DNA of 44,293 bases, from NCBI GenBank assembly GCA_902805625.1, contig CADCTL010000210.1:1-44293 (forward strand). Reading direction: 5' to 3'. The position numbers and the translations under genes are program-made. The notes beneath the pieces are model-generated. The model was not told the DNA's origin and did not search any database. It worked only from the letters and a program-made list of their open reading frames with translations. Source of the stretch: an uncultured Acetobacteraceae bacterium. Its GTDB lineage: Bacteria; Pseudomonadota; Alphaproteobacteria; Acetobacterales; Acetobacteraceae. Below, one piece after another: positions 27,228-43,693 of this stretch; positions within the stretch are counted from its first letter, which is position 1; the number at the start of each line of letters is the position of its first letter.

Positions 27228-28016
27228 ATGACGGATTCGCCTGTGCTGCTCGACGTGGACGCCCGCGGCGTCGCCACGGCCACCCTCAACCGGCCGGAGC
27301 GCGGCAACGCCTACGACGAAGACTTGCTGCACGCCCTCATCGACGGGGTGCGGCGGCTGCGCGCGGACCGAGCGGTGCGCGCCCTGGTGGTCCGGGGCGC
27401 GGGCAAGCACTTCCAGGCTGGAGCGGACCTCGATTGGTTGGCGCGGGCGGCCGAGTACCCGCCGGAGCGCGCCTTCCAGGCCTCCCTCGCCACCACCACC
27501 GCCATGCAGGAGCTGAACGAGTTTCCCCGCCCGACCTTGGCCGTGGTGCACGGCGCCTGCTTCGGCGGCGGCTGCGGCCTCGTCTGCTGCGTGGACGTGG
27601 CGCTGGCGACGCCAAGGGCGCTGTTCGGCCTGACGGAGGTGAGGGTCGGCGTCGCCCCCACCCCGATCTCCACCCACATGGTCCACGCCATGGGCCTGCG
27701 CCACACCCGGCGCTACGCCCTCACCGGGGAGCGGTTCGGCGCCGAGGAGGCGCTGCGGATCGGGCTGGTGCATGAGGTCGTCCCGGAGGACCGGATCGAG
27801 CAGCGCCTGTCCGACGTCCTGGGCGAAACGCTGCTCTCCGCGCCCGGCGCCTGCGCCGTGACCAAGGACAGCTTCCTGGGGGCGAGCGGCCTCAAGCTGG
27901 ACGCCCGGCAGATGGCCGCGCTGGCCCACGAGAGCTGGATGCAGCGCGCCTCGGCCGAGGGGCGGGAAGGGCTCGAAGCCTTCCGCGCGAAACGGCGACC
28001 GGGCTGGGCGCCTTGA
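27228..28016 (+). CDS. Enoyl-CoA hydratase/isomerase family protein (methylglutaconyl-CoA hydratase-like)
   Basis: This 262-residue crotonase-fold enzyme has the expected oxyanion-hole segments: AGKHFQAGADLDWL and GACFGGGCGLVCCVD. The acidic residue of LTEVRVGVAPTPIS sits at the catalytic position. The LTEVRVGVAPTPIS wording resembles LiuC-type 3-methylglutaconyl-CoA hydratases of leucine breakdown, but no other leu/liu genes flank it, so that assignment is tentative. The start is ATG 27228, and the product is cytoplasmic. It lies just upstream of the first PstS gene with a 166-bp gap and is probably transcribed separately. Confidence 0.85.
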   Translation: MTDSPVLLDVDARGVATATLNRPERGNAYDEDLLHALIDGVRRLRADRAVRALVVRGAGKHFQAGADLDWLARAAEYPPERAFQASLATTTAMQELNEFPRPTLAVVHGACFGGGCGLVCCVDVALATPRALFGLTEVRVGVAPTPISTHMVHAMGLRHTRRYALTGERFGAEEALRIGLVHEVVPEDRIEQRLSDVLGETLLSAPGACAVTKDSFLGASGLKLDARQMAALAHESWMQRASAEGREGLEAFRAKRRPGWAP

Positions 28017-28182: not shown

Positions 28183-29238
28183 ATGAATCGACGTTCTGTT
28201 CTCGCCGCTTCCGCCACCCTCGCCGGCGCCGGTCTGTTCGGGCGTTCGGCCTTCGCGCAGCAGACCCAGATCAAGGGCTGCGGCGCCACCTTCCCGCGTC
28301 AGGTCTTCGAGGCTTGGAGCGAGGCCGGTGTCGGCCCGACCGGCATCAAGATGGCCTACGAAGGAACCAGCTCCGGCGAGGGCCTCTCGAAGGTCGCCGA
28401 CCGCGTGGTGGACTTCGCGGCCACGGTCGCGCCGACCTCGGTCGGCCGGCTCCGGGAAAAGGGCCTGATGCAGTTTCCGTCCATGGTGGGCCCGGTCGTG
28501 TTCATCGTGAACCTGCCCGGCGTGGCGAAGGACCAGCTCCGGCTGACCGGTGATTGCATCGCCGACCTCTACATGGGCAAGATCACCAAGTGGAACGACC
28601 CCAAGTTCAAGGAGCACAACCCCGGCTTGGCGTTGCCGGACTTGCCGGTGGCGCCGATCTACCGGAGTGACAGCACCGGCACGACCCTGATGACCACCAC
28701 CTACCTGTCCCGCGCGTCCGAAGCGTGGCGCAACGGCCCGAAGGCCGGCAACGTGGTGCAGTGGCCCGTGGGCAAGGGCGCGATCCTGAACGCCGGCATC
28801 GCCGAGGCGGTGAAGGCCACGCCGGGCGCCATCGGCTACGTCAAGAACGCCTACGCCGCCCCCAAGAACCTCACTACGACGCAGCTCCGGAACCACTCCG
28901 GCAACTTCGTGAAGCCAGAGCGGCCCAACTTCTACGCCGCCATCGACGCGACGGATTGGACCCGGGCCGGGTTCATCGTGGACATGATCGACTTGGACGG
29001 CGCGAACGTGTGGCCGGTCATAGGGCCGTGCTACACCGTCATGTGCACCAACCCGCCCGCGGAGAAGGTCGAGGCCATCCGCAACACGATGAAGTTCTTC
29101 GACTGGGCCTTCAACAAGGGCGACGACATCGTGCGCCGCATGGGCAACGCCTCGTTGCCGGACGCGCTCAACAAGGCCGTGCATGAGTCCTGGGTGAACA
29201 TCAAGGACCCCAGCGGGCGCCCGATCTGGGGAGCCTGA
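28183..29238 (+). CDS. pstS: PstS-like phosphate-binding protein, paralog 1 (diverged)
   Basis: This 351-residue periplasmic binding protein starts MNRRSVLAASATLAGAGLFGRSAFAQ, a Tat-like signal (RR then hydrophobic). It is clearly PstS-related: CGATFPRQVFEAW, LPGVAKDQLRLTGDCIADLYMGKITKWNDP, TTYLSRASEAW, TPGAIGYVKNAY and MKFFDWAF. It is not canonical: aligned with paralog 3, the phosphate-contacting Asp is Val82 (DFAATVAP), the Ser of the RxDxSGT loop is Thr165, and the GSGGG loop reads TSSGEG. It may bind a different oxyanion, or phosphate with altered affinity. It is the first of three PstS genes before pstCAB and has its own promoter region and downstream hairpin. Confidence 0.88.
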   Translation: MNRRSVLAASATLAGAGLFGRSAFAQQTQIKGCGATFPRQVFEAWSEAGVGPTGIKMAYEGTSSGEGLSKVADRVVDFAATVAPTSVGRLREKGLMQFPSMVGPVVFIVNLPGVAKDQLRLTGDCIADLYMGKITKWNDPKFKEHNPGLALPDLPVAPIYRSDSTGTTLMTTTYLSRASEAWRNGPKAGNVVQWPVGKGAILNAGIAEAVKATPGAIGYVKNAYAAPKNLTTTQLRNHSGNFVKPERPNFYAAIDATDWTRAGFIVDMIDLDGANVWPVIGPCYTVMCTNPPAEKVEAIRNTMKFFDWAFNKGDDIVRRMGNASLPDALNKAVHESWVNIKDPSGRPIWGA

Positions 29239-29616
29239 ACCCGGCACTCTCCGAGCCTCCCTCCCGCCGCTGGACGCACGGCGGGAGAGATATCGAGATG
29301 TCCACCATGGCGAGACAAGGCGCGGGACCGCCCGAACGGGCGCCCGCGCCTTCGGCGTTGCCGTGCCGGGACGAGGGTCGCCGGCACACAAGCGAACGGT
29401 CGAACCGCGCCCCGCTGCGACGCCGAACCGCTCGGGCAGCAAGGCGCAGTCGGCGGGCTCGGGCGAGGCGCGCCCAGCCGTCAAAACCTCCGCAGCATTG
29501 TCTACAGGTTGATATACGTAAAAGCTCGCTCCCGTATTTGCACTATCACTCATGGTCATTTGAGCGGACCGAGTCCGCGCGAGCCCTGCCCGGACCTCAC
29601 CGATGGAGAGAAGCTC
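29239..29616 (+). other. Intergenic region between PstS paralogs 1 and 2
   Basis: This 378-bp gap holds a terminator-like hairpin right after paralog 1, a GC-rich stretch (with CGCCCGAACGGGCG at about 29329-29342), then an AT-richer block from about 29490 to 29570. Within that block TTGATA (29509-29514) could be a -35 box, and CTATCAC (29543) with TGGTCAT (29553) resembles a degenerate PHO box but with 10-bp spacing. I see no gene in either strand. Paralog 2 probably has its own promoter here. Confidence 0.45.
29261..29287 (+). terminator. Hairpin after PstS paralog 1
   Basis: CTCCCGCCG (29261-29269) pairs perfectly with CGGCGGGAG (29279-29287) across a 9-nt loop, 22 bp after the stop codon. 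No T-run follows. Confidence 0.6.
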
Positions 29617-30678
29617 GTGCAGAGACGTTCCTTGTTGCTGGCCACGGGTGCCGCCGCCGTTCTTCCGTTCGTTGCTCGCACCGCGCTCGCGCAGGCGGGT
29701 AGCGTCGCCGGGGCGGGATCCGCGCTGCCGCGCTCGGTGTACCAGAAGTGGATCGAACTGGCCGCGGCCGGCGCGAACGTCAAAGTCTCCTACGAGCAGA
29801 ACGGCGGAGCCGCCGCGCTCGATCAGCTGAAGAACCGGCAGATCGACTTTGCCAGCGTGGACTACCCGCGGCGCCCCGCCATGCTGCGCGAATACCAACT
29901 CATCCAGTTCCCGACCGTCCTCACGCCCGTGCTGCCCTTCGTGAACCTGCCGGGCGTCGCCGACGGCCAGCTCCGCCTCACCGGAGAGCTGCTGGCCGAC
30001 ATCTTCCTCGGCAAGATCACCAAATGGAACGACGCCAAGATCAAGGCGCACAACGGCGGCGTTAACCTGCCCGCCACCAACATCATGCCGGTGCATCGCT
30101 TGGAGGCTTCGGGCGCCAACCTGCTGTTCACCACCTACCTGAGCCGGGGGTCTGAGGCCTGGGCGGCCGGCCCGCGCGCGGGCACGACCGTGCAGTGGCC
30201 GCAGGGCAAGGGCGCCGAGGTCGAGGGGCTGGACGCCTTGGCGGCGAAGGTGAAGGGCACGCCCGGCGCCATCGGCTACGGCGGCGTCACCACCGTCAAG
30301 GCCAATGGCTTCTCCTCGGTGTCCTTGCAGAACCGGGCCGGGGAGTTCGTGAAGGCCGACCACGCCTCCTTCGCAAAGGCGGCCGAGGCCGAGGACTGGA
30401 ACACGCCGGGCTTCAATGTGGACCTGGTGGACGAAGCGGCCGCCGGGGCTTGGCCGATCCTGGGCGCGAACTTCGCCCTGGTCCCCGAGAACCCGACCGC
30501 CGAGAAGGTCGAATCGGCCCGCAACACCTTCAAGTTCTTCGATTGGGCATTCGACCACGGCTATGCCTCGGCGCATGAGCTTGGCTACGAAGGTATCCCG
30601 AAGGCTGCGATCCCCGCGGTCGAGACGGTCTGGCGCCGCGCCAAGGACCCCAGCGGGCGCCCGATCTGGGAAACCTGA
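29617..30678 (+). CDS. pstS: PstS-like phosphate-binding protein, paralog 2 (diverged)
   Basis: This 353-residue exported protein starts at GTG 29617 (MQRRSLLLATGAAAVLPFVARTALAQ, Tat-like), with GGAGAGAAG upstream; a longer ATG frame beginning at 29509 lacks a signal peptide. PstS marks include GAGSALPRSVYQKW, LPGVADGQLRLTGELLADIFLGKITKWND, TTYLSRGSEAW, TPGAIGYGGV and FKFFDWAF. The Asp of the DFGASD site is kept (Asp82, DFASVDYP), but the GSGGG loop is NGGAA and the SGT of the arginine loop is SGA (Ala167). This would weaken or change oxyanion binding. It shares an identical 29-bp 3' end with paralog 1. Confidence 0.88.
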   Translation: MQRRSLLLATGAAAVLPFVARTALAQAGSVAGAGSALPRSVYQKWIELAAAGANVKVSYEQNGGAAALDQLKNRQIDFASVDYPRRPAMLREYQLIQFPTVLTPVLPFVNLPGVADGQLRLTGELLADIFLGKITKWNDAKIKAHNGGVNLPATNIMPVHRLEASGANLLFTTYLSRGSEAWAAGPRAGTTVQWPQGKGAEVEGLDALAAKVKGTPGAIGYGGVTTVKANGFSSVSLQNRAGEFVKADHASFAKAAEAEDWNTPGFNVDLVDEAAAGAWPILGANFALVPENPTAEKVESARNTFKFFDWAFDHGYASAHELGYEGIPKAAIPAVETVWRRAKDPSGRPIWET

Positions 30679-30685
30679 ACGGTCA

Positions 30686-30723
30686 CGCGGCAGCACGCGG
30701 GTCCTCGCCCCGGTGCTGCCGCG
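30686..30723 (+). terminator. Hairpin after PstS paralog 2
   Basis: CGCGGCAGCAC (30686-30696) pairs perfectly with GTGCTGCCGCG (30713-30723), an 11-bp stem with a 16-nt loop, 8 bp after the stop codon. A GGGTTT run follows. It is a strong terminator candidate that would separate paralog 2 from the downstream genes. Confidence 0.65.
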
Positions 30724-30817
30724 CCTGATCAGGGTTTCGAGGCTGGCGGCCGCCGCCGACGGCGCGGAACGCGGACTGTCGGTCGCACGGACGACCGCCT
30801 GAGGTCGTCCAGGCAGA

Positions 30818-30846
30818 CTGTCATATAAGCTTCATCATTCTGCAAA
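30818..30846 (+). promoter_or_regulatory. PHO-box-like direct repeat
   Basis: CTGTCAT (30818-30824), GCTTCAT (30829-30835) and CTGCAAA (30840-30846) are spaced by exactly 11 bp, the pattern of PhoB sites (7-bp direct repeats with 4-bp AT-rich spacers). The first half-site is a full match to the consensus CTGTCAT. It lies about 86 bp upstream of PstS paralog 3, and phoB is in the same locus, so control of this transcript by PhoB is likely. A search with the PhoB weight matrix would test it. Confidence 0.6.
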
Positions 30847-30931
30847 GAATCCGCCTCTCCGGGCGTCTACGTAGGACGCCAACCGCCCCGAGGTCCCTTT
30901 CCAAGGACCGGCGGACAACGGAGAGACACCC

Positions 30932-31990
30932 GTGCAAAGACGCACCTTCTTGCTGGCCGCCTCGGCGGCCACGGCGAGCTCCTTGCTCGCGCCCCGCATC
31001 GCGTCCGCCCAGCAAGCGCAGATCACTGGCGCCGGCGCCAGCTTCCCGCGTCCGGTCTACGAGCGTTGGGGCCAAGCGGCGCGCGAGGCCGCAGGCGTCC
31101 AGTTGAACTACCAATCCATCGGCTCCGGCGGCGGCATCAACCAGATCACCAACCGCACGGTGGATTTCGGCGCGTCCGACGCGCCGCTGTCGGCGGACCA
31201 GTTGCGGCAAGGCAACTTGCTGCAATTCCCCACCGTCATGGGCTCGGTGGTGCTGATCGTGAACCTGCCCGGCGTGCAGGACCAGCAGCTCCGCCTGACG
31301 CCCGAGATCCTGGTCGAGTTGTTCCTCGGCCGCATCGCCCGCTGGAACGACCCCAAGCTGGCCGAGCTGAACCGTGAGGTCCGCCTGCCGAACATCCCGG
31401 TCGCGCCGACCTACCGCGCCGACGCGTCCGGCACGACTTTCGTGTTCACCACCTACTTGTCCCGCGTGTCCGACGCCTGGAAGAACGGCCCCGGCGCCGC
31501 GACCTCCGTGCAGTGGCCGGGCGGCCAGGGCGCCCGCGGCAACGAGGGCGTGGCGAACACCGTCCGCAACACGCCGGGCGCCATCGGCTACACCGAGAAC
31601 GCCTACGCCACCGTCAACCGCTTGGTGACGACGCAGCTCCGCAACAAGTCGGGCGCCTTCGTCAAGCCCGAGATGCCCGCCTTCATGGCGGCGGCCAACA
31701 CCGCCGACTGGAACGCGCCCAATTTCGCCGCCGACCTTGTGGACCTGAGCGGCCCGACCGTGTGGCCGATCGTCTCGCCCACCTTCGTCCTGCTGCCGAC
31801 CAACCCGCCCGCCGACAAGGTCGAGGCCAGCCGCAACACCATGAAATTCTTCGATTGGGCGTTCAAGAACGGCGGGGACGCCGCGCGGCGGCTCGAGTAC
31901 ATCCCCCTGCCCGATCCCGTGCACACCGCCATTCGCGCCGCTTGGAGCAACGTGAAGGCGCCCAGCGGGCAACAGGTCTGGAGCGCCTGA
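30932..31990 (+). CDS. pstS: Phosphate ABC transporter substrate-binding protein PstS (paralog 3, canonical)
   Basis: This 352-residue protein begins at GTG 30932 with a Tat-like signal MQRRTFLLAASAATASSLLAPRIASAQ and GGAGAGACAC before it. It has every canonical phosphate-binding motif: TGAGASFPRPVYERW, GSGGGINQI (Ser65), DFGASDAPLS (Asp83), YRADASGT (Arg162, Ser166, Thr168), TPGAIGYTEN and MKFFDWAF. PstS delivers periplasmic phosphate to PstCAB. It lies closest to pstC, with a possible weak stem (GAAACC 32009-32014 and GGTTTC 32030-32035) in between, and behind a PHO-like repeat, so this is the partner of the transporter. Confidence 0.95.
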   Translation: MQRRTFLLAASAATASSLLAPRIASAQQAQITGAGASFPRPVYERWGQAAREAAGVQLNYQSIGSGGGINQITNRTVDFGASDAPLSADQLRQGNLLQFPTVMGSVVLIVNLPGVQDQQLRLTPEILVELFLGRIARWNDPKLAELNREVRLPNIPVAPTYRADASGTTFVFTTYLSRVSDAWKNGPGAATSVQWPGGQGARGNEGVANTVRNTPGAIGYTENAYATVNRLVTTQLRNKSGAFVKPEMPAFMAAANTADWNAPNFAADLVDLSGPTVWPIVSPTFVLLPTNPPADKVEASRNTMKFFDWAFKNGGDAARRLEYIPLPDPVHTAIRAAWSNVKAPSGQQVWSA

Positions 31991-32064: not shown

Positions 32065-33048
32065 TTGCAGCAAGCCGTCACCTCTCCGCTCCCGATGACC
32101 GGCCGCCCCGGGCGGCGCGGCGGCACCAGCATGGGCGACCGCGTCTTCGAGTCCCTGTGCCGCGGCGCCGGGCTGTTCGTGCTGCTGCTGCTCGGCGCCA
32201 TCATCGTCACCCTGTTCATCGGGGGGCTGCCGGCCTTCCGGGAGTTCGGCGCCGGCTTCCTGTGGAGCGCGGACTGGAACCCGGTGGAGGGGCGGGAGTC
32301 CTACGGCGCGCTGGTGCCCGTGCTGGGCACGATCATCAGCGCCATACTGGCCATCCTGCTGGCCGTGCCGGTCGCCTTCGGCATCGCCTTCTTCCTCACC
32401 GAGCTGGCGCCGGAGTGGCTGCGCCAGCCCATCGCCACGGCGATCGAGCTGCTGGCCGCCATCCCCTCCATCATCTACGGCATGTGGGGCCTGTTCGTGC
32501 TGGTGCCCTTCGTGCAGCAGAACATCCAGCTCACCATCGGCGACGCCCTGGGCTCCATCCCGCTGGTGGGCTTTCTGTTCGAGAGCCGCTCCTTCGCGGG
32601 CACCAGCCTGTTCACCGCCGGCCTGGTGCTGGCCATCATGATCCTGCCCTTCATCGCCGCCACCATGCGCGACGTGTTCACGCAGGTGCCGCCCGTCTTC
32701 AAGGAGAGCGCCTACGGCCTCGGCGCGACGCGGTGGGAGGTGGTGCGCGGCGTGGTGCTGCCCTACACGCGCATTTCGGTGGTGGGCGGCATAATGCTCG
32801 GCCTCGGCCGCGCGCTGGGCGAAACGATGGCCGTCACCTTCGTCATCGGCAACGCCAACCGCCTGCCGCAGTCGCTCTTCGACCCCTCCACCACCATCGC
32901 CTCCATCGTCGCCATGGAGTTCCCGGAAAGCCTGATGGGCAGCCTCAAGCAGTCCTCCCTGCTGGCGCTCGGCTTCCTGCTCTTCGTCATCTCCTTCGTC
33001 GTGCTCGCGGTGTCGCGCTACCTGCTGCGGCCGCGGCTGAAGACCTGA
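32065..33048 (+). CDS. pstC: Phosphate ABC transporter permease PstC
   Basis: This 327-residue membrane protein with six helices is PstC, one of two channel subunits. Family marks are GALVPVLGTIISAILAILLAVPVAFGIAFFLTELAP, AIPSIIYGMWGLFVLVP, and the cytoplasmic EAA-like loop SAYGLGATRWEVVRGVVLPYTRI with LGRALGETMAV. The start at TTG 32065 has GGGAC upstream; ATG 32095 (317 aa) is the other candidate and has no ribosome site. pstA follows 4 bp after the stop. Confidence 0.93.
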   Translation: MQQAVTSPLPMTGRPGRRGGTSMGDRVFESLCRGAGLFVLLLLGAIIVTLFIGGLPAFREFGAGFLWSADWNPVEGRESYGALVPVLGTIISAILAILLAVPVAFGIAFFLTELAPEWLRQPIATAIELLAAIPSIIYGMWGLFVLVPFVQQNIQLTIGDALGSIPLVGFLFESRSFAGTSLFTAGLVLAIMILPFIAATMRDVFTQVPPVFKESAYGLGATRWEVVRGVVLPYTRISVVGGIMLGLGRALGETMAVTFVIGNANRLPQSLFDPSTTIASIVAMEFPESLMGSLKQSSLLALGFLLFVISFVVLAVSRYLLRPRLKT

Positions 33049-33052
33049 ACCC

Positions 33053-33964
33053 ATGAGCGCAACAACCGCCGACGGCCTCGCCCACGCGCCCGCCAGGGAC
33101 CAGGAGGTCGCCCGCGCCCTCGGCCGCCGCCGCCGCCTGGTGGACGCCCTCGTCCGCTGGCTGTGCATCGGCGCCACGGCGATCGGGCTGTTCTTCTTGG
33201 CGTCCCTGCTGTTCACGCTGTTCTGGCGCGGCTTGGCGGCGCTGGACTGGACGGTGCTGACGAAGGAGTTCGAGCCGACCACCTACGGCGACGAGACCGC
33301 GCCCAAGGGCGGGCTCAGCCACGCCATCGTCGGCACCCTGATCCACACGGTGCTCGCCACCCTCATCGGCACGCCGATCGGCCTGCTGGTGGGCACCTAC
33401 CTCGCGGAGTACGCGCGGGGCTCGGCGCTCGGCAACGCGGTCCGCTTCGTGTCGGACGTGCTGTTATCGGCCCCATCCATCCTCATCGGCCTGTTCGTCT
33501 ACCAGCTCGTGGTGCTGCCGCTCGGCGGCTTTTCGGGGTGGGCGGGCGTCGTCGCGCTGGCCATCATCGTCATCCCGGTGGTGGTCCGCACCACCGAGGA
33601 CATGCTCCAGCTCATCCCCAACACGCTGCGCGAGGCGGTGATCGCGCTGGGCGCGCCGAAGTGGAAGATGATCACCCTGGTCTGCTACCGCGCCGCCATC
33701 TCGGGGATCGCCACCGGCATCCTGCTCGCCGTGGCGCGCATCGCCGGCGAGACGGCGCCGCTGCTGCTCACCAGCTTCGGCAACTCGGTGATGTCGCTCG
33801 ACCTCGGCAGCGCCATGGCGAGCCTGCCCATCGCCATCTACCAGCAGGCCAACTCCGGCTTCCCGGACCTCATCGCCATCGCGTGGTCGGGCGCCCTGCT
33901 CGTGACGCTCGGCGTGCTGGCCATCAACATCGTCGCACGGGTCCTGCTGCGGCGCCGCCGCTGA
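33053..33964 (+). CDS. pstA: Phosphate ABC transporter permease PstA
   Basis: This 303-residue protein is the second channel subunit. Features are an N-terminal cytoplasmic charged stretch, about six helices, [35 protein letters not shown] and the permease loop [44 protein letters not shown]. It follows pstC by 4 bp and precedes pstB by 19 bp, on one transcript. Confidence 0.95.
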
Positions 33965-33983
33965 CCGAATGGAGATGCCGCGC

Positions 33984-34826
33984 ATGAGCGCCACCGCCGC
34001 CACCAAGGAAATCCAGCCCGCCACGTCCGGCTTCGGCGGCTTGCAGGCGAAGTCCTCCGCCGCGCTGAGCGCGAACGCCCGCGTCGCCATCCGCAACCTC
34101 GACTTCTTCTACGGCGACAACCGCGCCCTCAAGGCCATCAACCTCGACCTGCCGGACCGGCAGGTGACGGGCATGATCGGACCCTCCGGCTGCGGCAAAT
34201 CCACCCTCCTGCGGGTGCTGAACCGCATGTACAGCCTCTACCCCGGCCAGCGCGCGACGGGCGAGGTGCTGATGGACGGACAGAACATCATCGGCCCCGA
34301 CGTGGAAACCAACGAGCTGCGCTCGAAGATCGGCATGGTCTTCCAGAAGCCCACCCCCTTCCCCATGACCATCTACGAGAACATCGCCTTCGGCGTGCGC
34401 CTCCACGAGAAGCTGCCCAAGGCCAAGATGGACGAGCGGGTGGAGTGGGCGCTGTCCCGCGCCGCCATCTGGGGCGAGGTGAAGGACCGGCTCCACACCT
34501 CCGCCCTCGGCCTCTCGGGCGGGCAGCAGCAGCGCCTCTGCATCGCCCGCTCCATCGCGGTGCGGCCGGAAGTGATCCTGCTGGACGAGCCGACCTCCGC
34601 CCTCGACCCGATCAGCACCTCGAAGATCGAGGAGCTGATCGACGAGCTGAAGCGCGACTTCACCATCGCCATCGTCACCCACAACATGCAGCAGGCGGCG
34701 CGCTGCGCCGACCAGGTGGCGTTCTTCTACCTCGGCGAACTGGTCGAGGTGGCGCCTGCGGCGCAGCTCTTCACCGCGCCCAGGCATCCGAAGACGCAGG
34801 AATACATCACCGGCCGTTTCGGCTGA
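33984..34826 (+). CDS. pstB: Phosphate ABC transporter ATPase PstB
   Basis: This ABC ATPase of about 280 residues powers phosphate uptake at the inner membrane. Walker A is GPSGCGKST, the signature is LSGGQQQRL and Walker B is VILLDEPTS, with the switch His in THNMQQA. The PstB-specific segment [22 protein letters not shown] is present. ATG 33984 has GGAG 9 nt upstream; two in-frame ATG codons just before it (33969 and 33975) would add up to 5 residues. The gene is followed by phoU. Confidence 0.97.
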
Positions 34827-34843
34827 GCCCAGGAGCCCAGGGC

Positions 34844-35563
34844 ATGGAGCAGATGCAGGAGCACACGGTGCGCAGCTACTCCGAGGAGCTGCGCCGCCTG
34901 CGGGAGATGATCGTGCGCATGGGCGGCCTGGCGGAGCGGCAGGTGGCCGACGCCGCCCTGGCCCTTGTGCGGCACGACACCGACCTCGCCGCCGAGGTGG
35001 TGCAGCGCGACGCCGCGATCGACGCGCTGGAGCGCGAGGTCGAAGCCTTCTGCATCCGCATCCTGGCGCTGCGCCAGCCGGTGGGCGCGGACCTGCGGCT
35101 CATCGTGGCCTGCCTCAAGATCTGCCACGGGCTGGAGCGCATCGGCGACTACGCCCGCAACGCCGCCAAGCGCAGCATCGTGCTCGCGGAGCTGCCCGCC
35201 TTCGGCAGCCTCAACGGCTTCCAGCGCATGGCCCGGATGGTGCAAGCCAACCTGAAGGACGCCATCGACGCCCTGGTGAACGACGACGCCGCCAAGGCCG
35301 ACGAGGTCTGGGCGAACGACGAGCCGGTGGACGAGATCTACAACGGCATCTTCCGGGAGATGCTGACCTTCATGATGGAGGACCCGCGCAACATCACCGC
35401 CGCCACCCACCTCCTCTTCGTGGCGAAGAACCTGGAGCGCATCGGCGACCACGCGACCAACATCGCCGAGACCGTCCACTACGCCGTGCGCGGCGAAAGC
35501 CTGCCCGACGACCGCCCCAAGGCCGACATGTCGGCCTCGGCCGTGGTCCGGCCGCTGGGCTGA
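34844..35563 (+). CDS. phoU: Phosphate signalling complex protein PhoU
   Basis: This 239-residue helical protein has two PhoU domains. The repeated metal-binding motif is visible in both halves: CHGLERIGDYARNAAK and AKNLERIGDHATNIAE. PhoU links the PstB transporter state to PhoR/PhoB signalling and restrains phosphate uptake. Start ATG 34844 has AGGAG upstream; it lies 17 bp after pstB and 13 bp before phoB. Confidence 0.96.
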   Translation: MEQMQEHTVRSYSEELRRLREMIVRMGGLAERQVADAALALVRHDTDLAAEVVQRDAAIDALEREVEAFCIRILALRQPVGADLRLIVACLKICHGLERIGDYARNAAKRSIVLAELPAFGSLNGFQRMARMVQANLKDAIDALVNDDAAKADEVWANDEPVDEIYNGIFREMLTFMMEDPRNITAATHLLFVAKNLERIGDHATNIAETVHYAVRGESLPDDRPKADMSASAVVRPLG

Positions 35564-35576
35564 GGGCGCCGCCTCG

Positions 35577-36293
35577 ATGCCGGACACCGTCCAGGGCGTG
35601 GCGAAGCCCACCATCCTCGTCGTCGAGGACGAGGTGCCGCTGCTGACCCTGCTGCGCTACAACCTGGAGAAGCAGGGCTTCCGCGTGGACGAGGCCGGCG
35701 ACGGCGAGGAGGCGCTGCTGCGCGTCGCCGAGGGCCGGCCCGACCTCGTGCTGCTGGACTGGATGCTGCCCGCGCTCTCCGGCATCGAGGTCTGCCGCCA
35801 GCTCCGCCGCCGCCCCGGCACGCGCGACCTGCCGATCATCATGGTGACGGCGCGCACGGAGGACCAGGACGCGGTGCGGGCGCTCGACACGGGCGCCGAC
35901 GACTACATCTCCAAGCCCTTCGCCATGGACAGCTTGCTGGCCCGCATCCGCGCGCTGCTCCGGCGCTCCGGCGCGGTCGCCACGCGCGGCGTCCTGTCCT
36001 GGCGCGACCTCCTGCTGGACCAAGACGCGCACCGCGTGTCGCGCGCCGGCCGGCCGCTGCACCTCGGCCCGACGGAGTACCGCCTGCTGGAGTTCCTCAT
36101 GCAGCACCCGGGCCGCGTATTCAGCCGCGAGCAGGTGCTGGACGCCGTGTGGGGCCGCGACATCCACGTCGAGCCGCGCACGGTGGACGTCCACATCCGC
36201 CGCCTCCGCAAGGCGGTGAACGGGCCGGGCGAGGAGGACGTGATCCGCACCGTCCGCTCCGCCGGCTACGCGCTGGATTCGGAACCCGGCTGA
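35577..36293 (+). CDS. phoB: Phosphate regulon response regulator PhoB
   Basis: This 238-residue OmpR-type regulator has a receiver domain (residues 12-125) with acidic Glu17/Asp18, phosphorylated Asp61 (LVLLDWMLP), Thr91 and Lys113, and a winged-helix DNA-binding domain (about 135-235) with LGPTEYRLLEFLMQHPGRVFSREQVLDAVWG and RTVDVHIRRLRKA. It activates genes with PHO boxes when phosphate is short. The usual sensor kinase gene phoR is not beside it here; it may be elsewhere on the chromosome. Confidence 0.95.
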   Translation: MPDTVQGVAKPTILVVEDEVPLLTLLRYNLEKQGFRVDEAGDGEEALLRVAEGRPDLVLLDWMLPALSGIEVCRQLRRRPGTRDLPIIMVTARTEDQDAVRALDTGADDYISKPFAMDSLLARIRALLRRSGAVATRGVLSWRDLLLDQDAHRVSRAGRPLHLGPTEYRLLEFLMQHPGRVFSREQVLDAVWGRDIHVEPRTVDVHIRRLRKAVNGPGEEDVIRTVRSAGYALDSEPG

Positions 36294-36315
36294 CCGCCGG
36301 CGCGGAGCGGCGGCG

Positions 36316-37365
36316 CTACCAGCGGATGCAGGCCTCGTTGAAGAACCGCATGTCCGCGTCGCCGAGCGGCGCCCCCGACCCGACGAGCGCCGAAACGCGG
36401 CGGCAGCGATCCGGCGCGACCTCCGGCGGCGGCGCGGCTCTCCCCAGGCTTGGGATATCCCCGGCCTCCTGCTGACGCCGGGGCGGAGTCCTCTCGGGCG
36501 CTTTCCTGGCCGGCGGCGCGACGGCGTCCGGCCGCCGGGGCGAAGGGGCCGCGCGCTGGGGCGGCAGCGGCAAAGCTTCGACCAGGGGCGGAGGCGGGGC
36601 GAGCGAAGGCTGCTCCGAAGCCGGCGCGGTCGCTTCGGCCTCGGTGCGCGACGGGGCGGGGGATGGCGAGGCCGGGACGGGCTCCGCCGCGGGCCGAGGT
36701 TCTGGAAGCGAAGGCCACCACGGGCTGGCCTCTTCCACCGGCGAAACGCCGGCGACCGACGCGGGGGCCAACTCGGACTCAGTTGCCGTCCCGAGCACCA
36801 GAGACAACAGGCCGCCGAGCGCCGCGAGGCACACCAGCACCGCTCCGGCCGTCCGCATGGCCGCCGCGCCCCGCCGGCGTCGTCGGCCGCCGATGGCGGC
36901 GCTGCGGGACCGCTGCGGTTCGGGGCGAGGAACCGGGTGCTCCGCCGTCAGCGCCCGCGCCGCGACGCCGACCCAGGCGTCGCCGCCGGGCAGGCTCAAC
37001 GGCGGCTGCGCGGCGAAGGCGTCCTCCAGCAGCGAGGGGAGGAACGGCATCTGCCGCGATGTCGCTTGCAGATGGACCACCGGCAGGTGGCCCGCGAAGA
37101 TCGCGGGGAAGCGGGCCGCGTACAACCTGGCGCGCACCGCCTCGGCCGCGCCCGGCGTTCTGGAGGGCAGGATGTCCAGCACCGCGACGCCGCGCGCCGG
37201 GTGCAGCAGAACGGACGCCAAGCCGCCCCTGGCGGTCGCGCCGAGGCGGCAATCCCGGAGGATGAGCCAGTCGGGTCCGAGCTCCTCCGGCGTCCCGGCG
37301 AACGGGCGGTCCGTCGTCGGTGGCGGCAAAACCTCAACGCGGGCAGCGCGCTGCGCCATGGGCAT
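36316..37365 (-). CDS. Membrane protein with possible NERD-like N-terminal domain and proline-rich region
   Basis: This 349-residue protein is of unknown function. Residues 28-105 (PDWLILRDCRLGATARGGLASVLLHPARGVAVLDI, then GHLPVVHLQ) loosely recall the NERD nuclease-related fold, but I see no clear catalytic set. A basic run RRRRRG precedes a single membrane helix at about 172-192, giving an inside-to-outside topology. Residues 195-310 are rich in Pro, Ala and Glu, and the C-terminal 40 residues (PDRCRRVSALV to EACIRW) look like a small conserved domain with two cysteines. It converges with phoB. Confidence 0.6.
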   Translation of the reverse strand: MPMAQRAARVEVLPPPTTDRPFAGTPEELGPDWLILRDCRLGATARGGLASVLLHPARGVAVLDILPSRTPGAAEAVRARLYAARFPAIFAGHLPVVHLQATSRQMPFLPSLLEDAFAAQPPLSLPGGDAWVGVAARALTAEHPVPRPEPQRSRSAAIGGRRRRRGAAAMRTAGAVLVCLAALGGLLSLVLGTATESELAPASVAGVSPVEEASPWWPSLPEPRPAAEPVPASPSPAPSRTEAEATAPASEQPSLAPPPPLVEALPLPPQRAAPSPRRPDAVAPPARKAPERTPPRRQQEAGDIPSLGRAAPPPEVAPDRCRRVSALVGSGAPLGDADMRFFNEACIRW

Positions 37366-37536
37366 TCTTTCGATCAGCCGGAACCACGCACCGCGCGCGA
37401 TCCCGCCGCGCCCGGCGGTTCGGCGCGGGCTCGGGAAGCTGATGTGGGTGTAACCAGTTCGGATTACCCGGGCGAATCACAAGTCAAATCGAAGACTTAG
37501 CTCCGGAGCGGACCGCGGGCGACCGGTCGTGACGCC

Positions 37537-38349
37537 TCATCCCGTCCCCCCGCCGCTCCCCGCCCCCGGCCGGGGGCGGTGGAGGAATCCGCGCATCATC
37601 CGCGCGGGCTCGTCGCCCGACCACGACCGGGCGAAGGCCTCGATGCCGGCGGCTACCGCGCGGTCCGTCGGCAGGTTCTCCCATTCCCGCATGAGCGCCT
37701 TCTGCGCGCGCAAGGCTAGGGGGCCGGCGCTTCCGAGGTGCCCCAGCCACTCCTCCACCGCCCCGTCGAGCCCCGCCGCGGGCACCACCCGCTCGACCAA
37801 GCCCCACTCCAAGGCCTCCGCCGCGCCGATGATCTCGCCCAGGAGGAGCAAGCGGCGCGTCCGCCCCCAGCCGATCAATCCGGGCAGCAGCGCCGCCTCC
37901 ACCACGCTCGGGATGCCGACGCGGACTTCGGGCATCCCGAAGCGCGCGCCGGCGGCGGCGATGCGGAGGTCGCAGGCCGCGGCCAGTTCCAGCCCGGCGC
38001 CGAGGGCGTAGCCCTTGATCCGCGCGATCACCGGCACCGGGCAGTCCCGCACCGCCCGGCAGCAGCCGTGGACCAGCTCGATGAAGGCCCGCGCCGCGTC
38101 TGGGTCCGGGATCGCCGCCATCTCCCGGATGTCGGCCCCGCCGACGAAGGGCCGGGCGTCGGCACCGGCCAGCACCACCGCGCGCAGTTCGCCGTCGGCG
38201 GAAAGCCCGGCCATGGCTTCGGAGAAGCGCCGCATCAGCCCGGCGTCCAGCAGGTTCAGCCGGTGTTTGGCAGCGATCGAGACGAACCCGACCCGCCCGC
38301 CGTCCGGCCGGTCGCGCAGTTCGATCCGGACTTCGCCCTCGCCGTCCAT
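37537..38349 (-). CDS. Enoyl-CoA hydratase/isomerase family protein
   Basis: This 270-residue crotonase-fold enzyme has GADIREMAAIP and the oxyanion-hole GYALGAGLELAAACD, and the catalytic-region Glu in FGMPEVRVGIPSVVEAALLP. Enoyl-CoA hydratases add water to trans-2-enoyl-CoA in beta-oxidation. It differs from the family member at 27228 in the active-site neighbourhood, so the two are not recent copies. The C-terminal tail (RPRPGAGSGGGTG) is Pro/Gly-rich and low complexity. It is preceded on the - strand by a hairpin and a small membrane protein gene. Confidence 0.85.
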   Translation of the reverse strand: MDGEGEVRIELRDRPDGGRVGFVSIAAKHRLNLLDAGLMRRFSEAMAGLSADGELRAVVLAGADARPFVGGADIREMAAIPDPDAARAFIELVHGCCRAVRDCPVPVIARIKGYALGAGLELAAACDLRIAAAGARFGMPEVRVGIPSVVEAALLPGLIGWGRTRRLLLLGEIIGAAEALEWGLVERVVPAAGLDGAVEEWLGHLGSAGPLALRAQKALMREWENLPTDRAVAAGIEAFARSWSGDEPARMMRGFLHRPRPGAGSGGGTG

Positions 38350-38394
38350 GCCCCGCCTCCGCGCGGGACACCCCCGCGCTCGGGGCCTAGCGCG

Positions 38395-38423
38395 GCGGCG
38401 CCGGGCCTGCCACCCGGCGCCGC
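38395..38423 (-). terminator. Strong GC-rich hairpin between the small membrane protein and enoyl-CoA hydratase genes
   Basis: GCGGCGCCGGG (38395-38405) pairs with CCCGGCGCCGC (38413-38423), an 11-bp perfect stem and 7-nt loop. It lies downstream of the 38436-38726 gene, on its transcript strand, so it could end that transcript. Confidence 0.55.
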
Positions 38424-38435
38424 GCGGCCGGGTCG

Positions 38436-38726
38436 CTAGAGCGGCGGCGCCGTCGGGCGGGTCGCGTCGTCGCCGGGCTCCAAGGGCGAGCCCATGCCGG
38501 TGGCGCTGCCCAAATCCGAGCCCATGCCGTCGTCGTCGCGCCAGCTATCGCGCCGCTGCATCGCCTTGCGCGCCAGCACGGACCCGCCGACCAGCGCGGC
38601 CCCGACGCCCAAGCCGGCCAGGAACGGCCCCACCGCCGCCATCATCGCCATCCCGCCCATCGCGGTCCCGGCCACCGCCATCGGCAGGCCCAGGGGGTTG
38701 AGGGGGTTGCATCGCATCATCAGCAT
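38436..38726 (-). CDS. Small hypothetical membrane protein (96 aa)
   Basis: This short protein starts at ATG 38726 with GGAG 8 nt upstream (an in-frame longer version from 38786 is less likely). Residues about 12-50 are hydrophobic and Gly/Ala/Met-rich, with two closely spaced membrane segments. The rest is a polar tail with RKAMQRRDSWRDDDG and a short Ser/Gly/Met-rich stretch. It has no recognisable domain. It stands between the pqqB gene and the enoyl-CoA hydratase gene on the same strand. Confidence 0.6.
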   Translation of the reverse strand: MLMMRCNPLNPLGLPMAVAGTAMGGMAMMAAVGPFLAGLGVGAALVGGSVLARKAMQRRDSWRDDDGMGSDLGSATGMGSPLEPGDDATRPTAPPL

Positions 38727-38808
38727 CCGTTCTTCTCCCGACGTCGTTCGCCCGCCCGGAGATGGGCGAGGCCGCCAGGGGAGCAAGTCCGCGGCGGGGC
38801 GGAAGGTT

Positions 38809-39744
38809 TCACAACCGCAGTTCCATCCCGTCCTCCGCCACCTCCCAGCCCGCAGCTTCGGCGGCCGCGCGCTCCGGGCTGTCGGCCAGCAGCACGGGGT
38901 TGGTGTTGTTCAGGTGGATCAACACCCGCCGCCGCACGCCGAGCCCTTCAAAGGCGGCCAGCGTCCCGCCCGGCCCGTCCACGCTCATGTGCCCCATGCG
39001 CGCCCCGGTCTTCGCCCCCGCCCCGGCACGGACCATCTCGTCGTCCCGCCAGAGCGTGCCGTCGAACAACACGCAGGCCGCGCCGCGCAGCCGCTCCCGC
39101 AAGGCGTCCGTCATGGCCGCGCAGCCGGGGATGAAGAACAGCGCCTCGCCCTCCCCGGTCGAAAGCCGGAGCCCGATCGTCTCCCCGTCGTCGGCGCGGC
39201 CCGGATCGGCGCCGCCTTCTTCCAGGAACAGCGGCACCTTCCCCGGCACCGCGAAAGCCTCGACGCGAAGGCCGAGATCGCCCTCCGCCGCGTCCCTCAG
39301 GGCCAAGCCCTCGTGGAGCGGCAAGCGTCGCCGCGGCACCAACGCCGGGTCGAGCGCCCCGAAGATCGGGTTCTCCGCCAGCACCGCCAGCGATGGCTCG
39401 GCGCCGTACACGGCGAAGGCGTGCCGCTCGCGGAGGCTCAGCAGACCGGCGACCGTGTCCACCTCGGCGCCCGTCAGCACCACGGCGGCGATCGGCGAAT
39501 GGCGAACGGCGCCGCCCTCCGGCCGGGGATGCAGGGCGGGAGTCGCCCTGAGCTGCGCCGGCAGGTCGGGCGAGGCGTTCAGCAGAACCCAACGCCGCCC
39601 GTCCGTGGACACGGCCAAGGAGGTCTGGGTGCGCGGCGGAGCCGCCGGATCGCCGGCCCGCGCGCGCCGGCAGCCCGGCCCGGCCGAGTTCCATTGCGGA
39701 AAGCCGCCGCCGGCGGCGGCGCCGAGGACGATGGCGTGCAGCAT
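38809..39744 (-). CDS. pqqB: Pyrroloquinoline quinone biosynthesis protein PqqB
   Basis: This 311-residue protein is PqqB, a metallo-beta-lactamase-fold hydroxylase acting in PQQ biosynthesis. Family marks are VLGAAAGGGFPQWN, LNASPDLPAQL, VLTGAEVDTVAGLLSLRE, FFIPGCAAMTD, VLFDGTLWRDDEM, and the late RVLIHLNNTNPVL. The start is ATG 39744, after GAGGAACGCC; GTG 39756 is the alternative. The other pqq genes (pqqA, C, D, E) are not in the window, but the neighbour on the same strand is a PQQ-type sugar dehydrogenase. Confidence 0.93.
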   Translation of the reverse strand: MLHAIVLGAAAGGGFPQWNSAGPGCRRARAGDPAAPPRTQTSLAVSTDGRRWVLLNASPDLPAQLRATPALHPRPEGGAVRHSPIAAVVLTGAEVDTVAGLLSLRERHAFAVYGAEPSLAVLAENPIFGALDPALVPRRRLPLHEGLALRDAAEGDLGLRVEAFAVPGKVPLFLEEGGADPGRADDGETIGLRLSTGEGEALFFIPGCAAMTDALRERLRGAACVLFDGTLWRDDEMVRAGAGAKTGARMGHMSVDGPGGTLAAFEGLGVRRRVLIHLNNTNPVLLADSPERAAAEAAGWEVAEDGMELRL

Positions 39745-39853
39745 GGCGTTCCTCACCCGTGGGCCGCTGCGCCGGGGCGCTCAGGACACGGCCGGATCAG
39801 CAAAGCGGCGTTCGAGGCTCGCCGCCACCCTCCCGCGGCCCGCAAAGGGCGGG

Positions 39854-40210
39854 CTAACGGCGGCCCGGCACCGTCGCTTGCACCTCGATCGCCTCGTACC
39901 AAGCGGCGAGATCCGCGATGTGCGCGTCCGTCAGCGCCTGCGACACCACTGTCATCAACTCGTGCTTCCGCTCGCCGCTGCGGTAGTGCTGGAGCTGCGC
40001 GGCGGTGTAGCCGGCCTTCTGCCCGGCAAGGTTCGGCGCTTCCGGCAGCACGGCGATGCCGTCGTTGCCGTGGCAAGCCGCGCACTGCGCCCCCGCCAAG
40101 CGCCGCCCGGCGCGCGGGTCGCCCGACGACGCTGCAGGCTCCTGCGCGGGGGCCACGCCGGCCCCCGCCAACACCAGCATGGCCGCGAGGGCCGCGGGAC
40201 GCGTCGTCAC
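39854..40210 (-). CDS. Cytochrome c (single haem, exported)
   Basis: This 118-residue protein starts at GTG 40210, which overlaps the dehydrogenase stop as GTGA. It has an export signal (AALAAMLVLAGAGVAPAQ), the haem-binding motif CAACHG, a short helical domain (NLAGQKAGYTAAQLQHYRSGER) and a methionine candidate axial ligand in HELMTVV. It would take electrons from the PQQ dehydrogenase in the periplasm and pass them to the respiratory chain; the overlap supports a partnership. Confidence 0.87.
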   Translation of the reverse strand: MTTRPAALAAMLVLAGAGVAPAQEPAASSGDPRAGRRLAGAQCAACHGNDGIAVLPEAPNLAGQKAGYTAAQLQHYRSGERKHELMTVVSQALTDAHIADLAAWYEAIEVQATVPGRR

Positions 40211-41592
40211 CGCTGCCGGTCGTAGGAGATGCGGTAAATCGCGCCCGCCATGTCGTCGGACACGAGCAGGGAGCCGTCGCGCAGCGTCGCCACGTCCACC
40301 GGCCGGCCGAGATACTCGTTGGTTTCCTCGTCCAGCCAGCCCTCGGCGAAGGGCTTGTGCTCGCGCACGGTGCCGTCCGCGTTGAGGAACGTCACCATCA
40401 CCCGGGCGCCGACCGGCGTGGTGCGGTTCCACGAGCCGTGCTGGGCGTTGAAGATCGCGCCGCGGTACTCCTCGGGGAACATCCGCCCGTCGTAGAAGGT
40501 GATGCCGAGGTCGGCCGCGTGGTTCTGCGTCTCCACCACGGGCTTCACCGCGTCCGCCGGCGGCTGGGCGTTGGCGTATTCCTTGGTCCGGGTGGTGCCG
40601 CCGCCGTACCAAGGGAAGCCGAAGTTCTGCCCCGGCGCCGTGATGCGGTTGATCTCGCCGTTCGGGATGTCGTCGCCCATGCCGTCCACCTGGTTGTCGG
40701 TGAACCACAGCTCCTGGGTGCCGGGCCGGAAGGCGATGCCGACACTGTTGCGGATGCCCCGCGCGTAGACCTCGCGGTTCTTGCCGTCGCGGTCCATGCG
40801 GACGATCCCGCTGATGCCGACCCGGTTGTACACCTCCAGCTTGCTCTGCGGCGGCACGTTGAAGGGCTGCCCGAGCGAGATGTAGAGCTTGTTGTCCGGC
40901 CCGATCCGGCACACGCGGGCGCCGTGGTTGAAGCTCTCCTCCGACGCGGGGATGAGCTGGCCCTGGGCCGCCACCGTCTCGGCCGCGACGTCCGGCCCCT
41001 CGTAGAAGAACTCGGCGGCGGGGAAGGCGAGGACGCGGTTGTGCTCGATCACGTACAGGATGCCGTCCGGCGAGAAGCACAGCCCGTTCGGCACGCTGAA
41101 CCCGACGGACGGCGCGAAGACCTTCACCTCGTCGGCCACCCGGTCGCGGTCGCGGTCCGTCACGGCCCACACGCGCGTCTTGCGCGTGCCCACGAACACC
41201 ACGCCGGAAGCGCCCACCGCCATGTGCCGCGCGTCCGGCACCACGGCGTAGAGTTCGATGCGGAAGCCCTCCGGCAGCTTGATGCGCTCCAGGTTGCGGC
41301 GCAGCGCGTCGGCGCGGCGGCCGTCCTGCGGCACCGTTTCCATCTGCATGGCGGTGCCCGTCGTGCGGAACTGCTGCAAACGGTCGAGATTGCCGCCCTG
41401 CGCGGTGGGCGCGGGGCCGGGCGGCGGCGGCCGTACCGAAGGCGAGGTCTCGCCGGGGGCAGCCCCGCCCGGCGCCACGGCCGGCGGCTGGACCGGCCGT
41501 TGGTCCTGCCGCGGCTGCGGCTGCGCCACGAGCCCCGTCGCGCCGGCCGCCAGGAATAGCCCGGCGCCCAACAATGCCTTCGCTGCTCTCAT
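40207..41592 (-). CDS. PQQ-dependent sugar dehydrogenase (sorbosone dehydrogenase family)
   Basis: This 461-residue exported protein has a signal peptide (MRAAKALLGAGLFLAAGATGLVAQ) and a Pro-rich linker. A beta-propeller follows with the family motifs LPEGFRIELYAVVPDARHMAVG, GFSVPNGLCFSPDGILYVIEH, ARGIRNSVGIAFRPGTQELWFTDN, INRITAPGQNFGFPWYGGG and GRPVDVATLRDGSLLVSDD. These fit the sorbosone dehydrogenase family, soluble PQQ-type glucose/sorbosone dehydrogenases. The start ATG 41592 has GGAGGA 6 nt upstream. The following cytochrome c gene overlaps it. The exact sugar is unknown. Confidence 0.9.
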   Translation of the reverse strand: MRAAKALLGAGLFLAAGATGLVAQPQPRQDQRPVQPPAVAPGGAAPGETSPSVRPPPPGPAPTAQGGNLDRLQQFRTTGTAMQMETVPQDGRRADALRRNLERIKLPEGFRIELYAVVPDARHMAVGASGVVFVGTRKTRVWAVTDRDRDRVADEVKVFAPSVGFSVPNGLCFSPDGILYVIEHNRVLAFPAAEFFYEGPDVAAETVAAQGQLIPASEESFNHGARVCRIGPDNKLYISLGQPFNVPPQSKLEVYNRVGISGIVRMDRDGKNREVYARGIRNSVGIAFRPGTQELWFTDNQVDGMGDDIPNGEINRITAPGQNFGFPWYGGGTTRTKEYANAQPPADAVKPVVETQNHAADLGITFYDGRMFPEEYRGAIFNAQHGSWNRTTPVGARVMVTFLNADGTVREHKPFAEGWLDEETNEYLGRPVDVATLRDGSLLVSDDMAGAIYRISYDRQR

Positions 41593-41821
41593 CGAGTCCT
41601 CCCGTTTCGTCCCCCGCGCGCCGCGGCGTTTTCCGCGACGGGCAAGGGGCAGCCATGCTCGGACACCCGGCGGCCGAGCGTTCACATAGCGGCGACCCCG
41701 GATTGTTGGAGTCCCCCGGGCATCGCCGGCCACCCGCGCCGCTTGAACGCCGCCCCCTCCCGCGCCTATTCACACGGGCCCGGCGGGTGTCCGGGCTCGT
41801 CGCAGGTTTCAGGAGCGGGTC
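41593..41821. other. Divergent intergenic region between sugar dehydrogenase and asd
   Basis: This 229-bp gap must hold the promoters of both divergent genes. Near 41639 a GC-rich dyad is visible (CGCGGCG and CGCGACG flanking TTTTC). I see no convincing -35/-10 pair and no further gene. The AGGAG at about 41811-41815 is the asd ribosome site. Confidence 0.5.
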
Positions 41822-42856
41822 ATGGCATTCAGGGTCGCGGTCGTCGGCGCCACCGGAGCGGTCGGGCGCGAGATCCTCAAGACCCTGGCGGAGCGCGACT
41901 TCCCGGTGGGCGAGGTGGTGGCGTTGGCGTCCGGGCGCTCCACCGGATCGGAGGTGTCGTTCGGCGAGAAGGGCACGCTCAAGGTCCAGAACCTGGAAAA
42001 GTTCGACTTCCGCGGCACGGACATCGGCCTGTTCTCGCCGGGCGCCTCCGTGTCCGCGGTCCACGCCCCGCGCGCCGCCGCGGCCGGCTGCGTGGTGATC
42101 GACAACACCAGCCACTTCCGCATGGAGCCGGACGTGCCGCTGGTGGTGCCGGAGGTGAACCCGCAGGCCCTCAAGCGCTTCTCCAAGCGCAACATCATCG
42201 CCAACCCGAACTGCTCCACCATCCAGATGGTGGTGGCGCTGAAGCCGCTGCACGACGCGGCCCGCGTCCGCCGCGTGGTGGTCGCCACCTACCAGTCCGT
42301 CTCCGGCGCCGGGAAGGAGGGCATGGACGAGCTCTTCAACCAGACCCGCGCCGTGTACGTGAACGACCAGGCCCAGCCGGAGCAGTTCACCAAGCCCATC
42401 GCCTTCAACTGCATCCCCCACATCGACCGCTTCATGGACGACGGCTCCACCAAGGAAGAATGGAAGATGGCGGTGGAGACCAGGAAGATCCTCGACCCGG
42501 ACATCGCCGTGGTCGCCACCTGCGTCCGCGTGCCGGTGTTCGTCGGCCACGCCGAGGCGATCCACGTCGAGTTCGAGAACCCCATAGACGAGGAACAGGC
42601 CCGCGACCTCCTGCGCGATGCGCCCGGCGTGCAGCTCGTGGACCGGCGCGAGGATGGCGGCTACGTCACGTCCAGCGAGTCGGCCGGCGAGGACGCGGTG
42701 TACGTCTCGCGCCTGCGCCGCGACCCCACCGTGCCCAACGGCCTCGCCTTCTGGTGCGTGTCCGACAACCTCCGCAAAGGCGCGGCGCTGAACGCGGTGC
42801 AGATAGCGGAGGCGCTGGTGGAACAGGGGCTGATCCAGGCCAAGCGGGCGGCCTGA
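41822..42856 (+). CDS. asd: Aspartate-semialdehyde dehydrogenase
   Basis: Asd makes aspartate semialdehyde for lysine, threonine and methionine synthesis. The 344-residue protein has the NADP motif VVGATGAVGREIL, the phosphate loop GRSTGSEV, the active-site Cys131 in IANPNCSTIQM, and QSVSGAGKEGMDEL, FNCIPHID and the C-terminal VRVPVFVGHAEAIHVEF regions that bind the substrate and place the base. ATG 41822 has AGGAG upstream. A hairpin follows its stop closely, so it may be monocistronic. Confidence 0.96.
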   Translation: MAFRVAVVGATGAVGREILKTLAERDFPVGEVVALASGRSTGSEVSFGEKGTLKVQNLEKFDFRGTDIGLFSPGASVSAVHAPRAAAAGCVVIDNTSHFRMEPDVPLVVPEVNPQALKRFSKRNIIANPNCSTIQMVVALKPLHDAARVRRVVVATYQSVSGAGKEGMDELFNQTRAVYVNDQAQPEQFTKPIAFNCIPHIDRFMDDGSTKEEWKMAVETRKILDPDIAVVATCVRVPVFVGHAEAIHVEFENPIDEEQARDLLRDAPGVQLVDRREDGGYVTSSESAGEDAVYVSRLRRDPTVPNGLAFWCVSDNLRKGAALNAVQIAEALVEQGLIQAKRAA

Positions 42857-42865
42857 TGGATGGCG

Positions 42866-42891
42866 GCGCGCCCGAACCGATCGGGACGCGC
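42866..42891 (+). terminator. Hairpin after asd
   Basis: GCGCG-CCCGA (42866-42875) pairs with TCGGG-CGCGC (42881-42891) with one bulged A and a 5-nt loop, 9 bp after the asd stop. It has no T-run. Confidence 0.55.
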
Positions 42892-43166
42892 GACGACGTC
42901 ATTGAGAGTCGCCCACTCGGCGGACGCCCTTGCGACCGCCGTGCAGAGGCTGGCGGCCGGCCTCGATGGGCTTAGCGGAAAGGCCAGGGATGGCGCGGCG
43001 ACCGGGTTTCGGCCCCCGCCGCCGCCATAAGCCTCGCAAGCGCCGCCAAAGTCCTCGAAGCGATGGGCGAAAAGCGGCCGTGAGCGACGGGAATTTGGTC
43101 AGCCGCGATGGCATGAGGCGCAAGGCCAAGCTCACCGGTTAAGGCGGCGGCTCCGCTAATGGCGGT

Positions 43167-43387
43167 ATGCTGGACCAGCAGGCCGCAGCATTCGGAGCCG
43201 AGTTGCGCGAGGTGAAAACCGCGCTCGGCAGGATCGGAGCGTTATTTCGCGGCCCGGACTATCGCCTACGCCGCGTTGAAGCCGACCTGGCCGAACTCAA
43301 AGGCAAAGTTTCCCAGCGCCCGACTGGCTTGATCCTTGGATGTTCGCGCCTTCCTACGCCCTCTTCGGTTTCGGGCTGCCGCATTAG
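43167..43387 (+). pseudogene. Small coiled-coil protein, probably frameshifted
   Basis: From ATG 43167 the frame reads an amphipathic, charged stretch (FGAELREVKTALGRIGALF, RRVEADLAELKGKVSQ) typical of small phage-type or unknown coiled-coil proteins, then turns into low-complexity, cysteine-containing sequence. A shift of one base at about 43316-43320 instead gives APDWLDPWMFAPSYALFGFGLPH and a stop at 43387, a hydrophobic membrane-like tail that fits better. I therefore read it as a frameshifted gene. No function is known. Confidence 0.4.
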
Positions 43388-43529
43388 CTCGGGCTTCGGA
43401 ACGTGCCGGCATCCGGCGGCAGCGTCGAGGCTTCGGCAGCCCCCGCCTCGACGCTCGCTTAGTTGAGGTTGAACGGCCATACTCCCGTCGCCAGCACTCG
43501 AGACGCGCCCGCTAGCGGACCTACAAACA

Positions 43530-43610: not shown

Positions 43611-43693
43611 ACGATAGGACCAAGAACCTACATATTCCTTGACATAGGAACAAAAGCAGAACTTACTGCCCGCGCCGAAACGGAGGCGCTGGC

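Follow-up and report, generated by a model that had tools for sequence, protein, structure and literature searches.

Two diverged PstS homologues beside a canonical pstS-pstCAB operon in an uncultured Acetobacteraceae bacterium are candidate alternative anion receptors

Two PstS-like binding proteins encoded in front of a canonical PstS may represent a lineage-restricted, PstS-derived family that is transcribed in separate units outside PhoB control and provides alternative anion receptors for the same PstCAB importer; we give this reading an even chance of being right. The stretch of DNA analysed, the window, comprises the 44,293 nt of contig C210 from a metagenome-type bin of 3.77 Mb in 307 contigs, with 77% completeness. 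The bacterium belongs to the Roseomonas group; judged by pstS, Plastoroseomonas, Roseococcus, Falsiroseomonas and Rhodovarius are its closest named relatives. Three PstS-family genes, termed copies 1, 2 and 3, are followed in the window by pstC-pstA-pstB-phoU-phoB (Table 1). The start of copy 2 was chosen by alignment with a second contig of the bin, C17, and by an upstream ribosome-site-like GGAGAG.

Table 1. Positions of the features discussed, numbered along the window
Feature	Position	Strand	Basis
Enoyl-CoA hydratase/isomerase family gene; marker of the junction	27228..28016	+	
Copy 1, PstS-like binding protein, 351 aa	28183..29238	+	
25-nt block CATTGTCTACAGGTTGATATACGTA, before copy 2	29496..29520	+	strain comparison
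Copy 2, PstS-like binding protein, 353 aa from GTG 29617	29617..30678	+	
Pho box CTGTCATATAAGCTTCAT, ~114 nt before copy 3	30818..30835	+	matrix scan
Copy 3, canonical PstS, 352 aa; orthologue of the relatives' single pstS	30932..31990	+	
PstC permease	32065..33048	+	
PstA permease	33053..33964	+	
PstB ATPase	33969..34826	+	
PhoU, start approximate	34850..35563	+	
PhoB response regulator	35577..36293	+	

All three PstS copies are intact open frames. They scored 274.8 (copy 1), 256.7 (copy 2) and 339.7 bits (copy 3) against the NCBIfam PstS model TIGR00975 (cut-off 205), and each exceeded the PF12849 cut-off. A further PF12849 match, on contig C283 (L010), was left out of the PstS set, its permease and ATPase being unlike PstCAB. 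The trio is encoded with pstCAB, the adjacency being seen in the window and, as far as the contig end in pstC, in C17. Identity to copy 3 was 52% for copy 1 and 45% for copy 2, and a twin-arginine-type signal (RRS/T-x-L ... AxA) was recognized by eye at all three N-termini. AlphaFold2 models of copies 1 and 2 (pLDDT 83.6 and 84.3) found E. coli PstS as their best PDB match, with TM-scores to this target of 0.93-0.94 and 0.90, respectively, so that in the models both proteins have the PstS fold throughout. Copy 1 contains four cysteines (C33, C125, C283 and C288) kept in both strains, while E. coli PstS has none; disulfides are possible. Further along the window, a minus-strand gene (38809-39756) encodes a beta-lactamase fold (Lactamase_B_2) and is presumably PqqB-like.

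To compare the binding sites we used the eight phosphate contacts of E. coli PstS, T10, F11, S38, D56, R135, S139, G140 and T141 (PMC10846223). In copy 3 these positions are S, F, S, D, R, S, G, T, so that all eight contacts are present, with Ser in place of Thr10; in copies 1 and 2 the canonical site is incomplete. The copy 1 set is T, F, S, V, R, T, G, T: Asp56 is replaced by Val82 and Ser139, conservatively, by Thr165. As Thr for Ser retains the hydroxyl, seven of the eight contacts are chemically kept. The copy 2 set is A, L, G, D, R, S, G, A (T10A, F11L, S38G and T141A), which removes the hydroxyls at 10, 38 and 141, and this copy also has a second-shell change, D137E; position 38 is Gly in the window and Ala in C17. 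It retains Asp56, Arg135, Ser139 and Gly140, so that among the three the acid is lost in copy 1 alone. An earlier note on this DNA had reported altered contacts in copies 1 and 2 and an Arg kept in all three, and comparison with the E. coli contacts confirmed both. Its numbering was correct (S65, D83, R162, S166 and T168 in copy 3; V82 and T165 in copy 1; A167 in copy 2 counted from GTG 29617). The copy 2 changes that it listed were right, and T10A, F11L and D137E had been missed. Judged by these residues, copies 1 and 2 are PstS homologues whose role as phosphate receptors is putative.

When 73 other PstS-family sequences were scored, R135, S139 and G140 were found in 73/73, S38 in 72/72 with a residue in that column, and D56 in 72, the single exception being a broken gene. 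Changes of the copy 1 or copy 2 type among the other homologues scored were confined to a single broken gene and a pair of remote homologues (Leu11, Asp141). Because the contacts are near-universal, the changes in copies 1 and 2 are not chance variation. We found no excess of lost near-invariant sites in the pocket of copy 1 (2/8 against 17/67 elsewhere) or copy 2 (4/8 against 19/67, p=0.24); change targeted to the pocket was thus unsupported, and the pocket changes may belong to general divergence.

The same trio, in the same order, was found on C17, which is collinear with window positions 5602-32574 at 88-89% DNA identity (L009, L107) and ends inside pstC. Since this independent contig repeats the arrangement, the trio is not an artefact of contig assembly, and a chimeric assembly was ruled out. 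C17 probably derives from a sister strain or species that was binned together with this one; a large duplication is a less likely origin, and either supplies a comparison pair for every gene of the trio. No second copy of window positions 33000-44293 was found in the bin. Identity between C17 and the window climbs to 97% inside pstC, at the contig end.

Comparison of the mature parts between the window and C17 gave dN/dS values of 0.083 (copy 1), 0.107 (copy 2) and 0.113 (copy 3) at dS 0.26-0.42, showing that all three copies are under strong purifying selection. Between paralogues, dN was 0.41 and dS 0.56 for copies 1 and 3, and dN 0.54 and dS 0.71 for copies 2 and 3; copy 3 compared with PstS of other genera gave dN 0.14-0.23 and dS 0.52-0.64. 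With 91-96% GC at third positions, dS is probably underestimated where it is large, and comparison at like dS is safer than dN/dS ratios. The high dN at like dS, together with the low dN/dS between strains, indicates fast change after duplication and constraint now.

We then examined the junction and its regulation. The enoyl-CoA hydratase gene is followed directly by pstS and then pstCAB in Plastoroseomonas, Rhodovarius and a pond MAG; copies 1 and 2 thus interrupt a junction that is otherwise conserved. A matrix derived from 41 sites upstream in relatives gave the Pho box before copy 3, the only one in the window, a score of 30.2 (next best, 6.9). This box is identical in C17, and by this criterion copy 3 belongs to the Pho regulon. 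The matrix scan found no Pho box before copies 1 and 2, for which the whole window was covered, or before two related genes on contigs C142 and C191, and none of the four is assigned to the regulon. Copies 1 and 2 are therefore likely to form separate transcription units outside the PhoB regulon, although read-through may occur. Treatment of the trio as one operon unit was not upheld, given the single Pho box before copy 3 and the gene order of the relatives. The gaps preceding copies 1, 2 and 3 are 166, 378 and 253 nt. In the gap before copy 2 the strains share only 66% identity, yet the 25-nt block within it is nearly identical, making it a candidate promoter or operator of copy 2, in the latter case perhaps for a regulator. 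A consensus scan revealed no sigma-70-type promoter or plus-strand terminator. No clear promoter element was shared by copies 1 and 2 and the C142 and C191 genes.

Copies 1 and 2 form one clade with the PstS-like genes of C142, C191 and C178 (support 100/99), a family of four or more intact genes plus a broken one. The C142 gene (L011 5185-6246) has V10, S11, A139 and P141, and the C191 gene (L012 4605-5756) has E56 and A139; the four intact paralogues thus carry four differing contact sets, with Arg135 and Gly140 unchanged throughout. No Pst permease was found near the C142 or C191 gene. The former is solitary among unrelated metabolic genes, and the latter adjoins a tripartite tricarboxylate (TctC-type) system and a mutator-family transposase. 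The C178 gene (L108 1-1103) has an in-frame stop and has lost its N-terminal part; an IS66 transposase lies near. The sample comprised 397 genomes from 102 genera of the same family, this bin being the only genome of its genus. Among the matches listed, clade members were absent from the 396 other genomes, matches were at most 53% identical, and nearly every genome had a single match; the best matches, where retrieved, were copy 3 orthologues. The clade is therefore confined to this lineage, so far as sampled. The free tree placed it outside all Roseomonad pstS, and a constraint uniting it with copy 3 was not rejected (p-AU 0.38), so that duplication before and after the radiation of the Roseomonad group are both compatible with the tree tests. 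Horizontal gain from plasmids or phages was rejected: the best plasmid matches were ordinary PstS at ~39% identity, there were zero viral matches, and the tree sets the clade beside Roseomonad PstS.

We propose that the family arose when the canonical pstS was duplicated; it then diverged fast and is now under purifying selection. Flanked by the enoyl-CoA hydratase gene on one side and the Pho-box-controlled pstS-pstCAB-phoU-phoB operon on the other, and probably not induced by PhoB, copies 1 and 2 would act as alternative periplasmic anion receptors. They most likely dock on the same PstCAB because no other Pst permease was found; with the bin 77% complete, another could be missing from it. 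The pocket of copy 1 would offer only hydrogen-bond donors and the Arg where PstS has an acid acceptor. By analogy with sulfate-binding proteins, removal of the acid may favour unprotonated anions; copy 1 is predicted to tolerate unprotonated tetrahedral (sulfate-like) anions and to bind phosphate with a changed pH dependence. For copy 2, weaker phosphate binding is predicted because three hydroxyls are lost and side chains are smaller, and its pocket might admit a phosphomonoester or a phosphonate. Docking on PstCAB, separate transcription and the ligands of copies 1 and 2 are all features that we infer.

Weaker binding of phosphate and binding of another anion appear about equally probable for copies 1 and 2. 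One serious rival, which we rate somewhat below even, is that both remain receptors for inorganic phosphate, binding it less tightly or at a different pH optimum, and are made constitutively to serve at low affinity while the Pho regulon is inactive. Both retain Arg135, Gly140 and a Ser or Thr at 139, copy 1 keeps most of its contact chemistry, and the missing Pho boxes fit expression outside starvation. In Synechococcus WH8102, labour is divided by affinity with 10-fold differences in Kd (PMC10846223). The structure of the E. coli D56N mutant contains monobasic phosphate (PDB 1ixi), and SAR11 CpPstS, without the Arg and with no Asp contact, still binds phosphate with a Kd of 112 nM (PMC12421899); thus, loss of Asp56 need not abolish phosphate binding. 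However, the loss of three hydroxyl donors in copy 2 exceeds the Ser/Thr change in WH8102, and four intact paralogues with four pockets fit ligand diversification better than affinity tuning. In favour of a new specificity, the four differ in their contacts while Arg135 and Gly140 stay constant, and the two with strain pairs are under strong constraint.

It is improbable that copies 1 and 2 feed no transporter and serve as free periplasmic anion buffers or as sensors, for example for a chemoreceptor. The C142 and C191 relatives lack a nearby Pst permease and one PstC was found per strain, yet copies 1 and 2 adjoin pstCAB in both strains and no sensor partner was seen. Decay of the two copies as superfluous duplicates has hardly any probability left. 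The broken clade member on C178 would fit decay, but the frames of copies 1 and 2 are free of stops and frameshifts in both strains, their start sites and signal sequences are kept, and the low dN/dS, over dS 0.27-0.42, rejects decay for the recent past. The earlier note's argument against decay, and its observation of open frames, thus held.

Pst importers are treated as phosphate-specific, and genes scoring as PstS are annotated as phosphate receptors. Such automatic annotation may be wrong for the four intact homologues here, which are kept with contacts changed in four ways; the selection evidence comes from the two window copies. The altered copies are natural variants of a site mutated for decades (Asp56, Ser139 and Thr141) and could be used to ask how the choice between phosphate and sulfate or an ester evolves. 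A tentative and rather unlikely extension is that a lineage-specific radiation derived from the phosphate receptor a set of receptors for other oxyanions or for phosphoesters, two or more of which use a single PstCAB outside phosphate-starvation control; if true, a transporter viewed as phosphate-specific would accept a wider range of substrates.

Extra PstS proteins, and multiple receptors beside one ABC importer, are already known. As here, Xanthomonas citri has a duplicated PstS, PhoX, near one pstSCAB, outside the operon and with a different promoter (PMC5439949; PDB 8ods, 5i84), and a difference in affinity for the permease has been proposed for the pair (PMC5439949), a point that weighs against docking of copies 1 and 2 on PstCAB. 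Its ligand residues are all conserved at 70% identity and both proteins are induced by phosphate starvation (PMC5439949), whereas here contacts are altered, identities to copy 3 are 52% and 45%, and copies 1 and 2 lack a Pho box. Synechococcus WH8102 likewise has three homologues with differing pockets, PstS1a, PstS1b and PstS2 (PMC10846223), but these differ only by Ser/Thr at position 10 and all bind phosphate only (PMC10846223). The SAR11 CpPstS pocket also departs from the E. coli contact set (PMC12421899); it lacks the Arg and is the receptor of its own PstSCAB (PMC12421899), whereas the Arg is kept in all three copies here. Mycobacterium tuberculosis too has several PstS proteins, and for PstS1 and PstS3 the preferred protonation state is proposed to vary with the number of pocket Asp residues (PMC4996455); each named PstS lies there in the operon of its own PstA (PMC4996455), in contrast to the one PstCAB found here. 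What differs in the present locus is the number of altered contacts, their occurrence in one lineage-confined clade, and the absence of Pho boxes.
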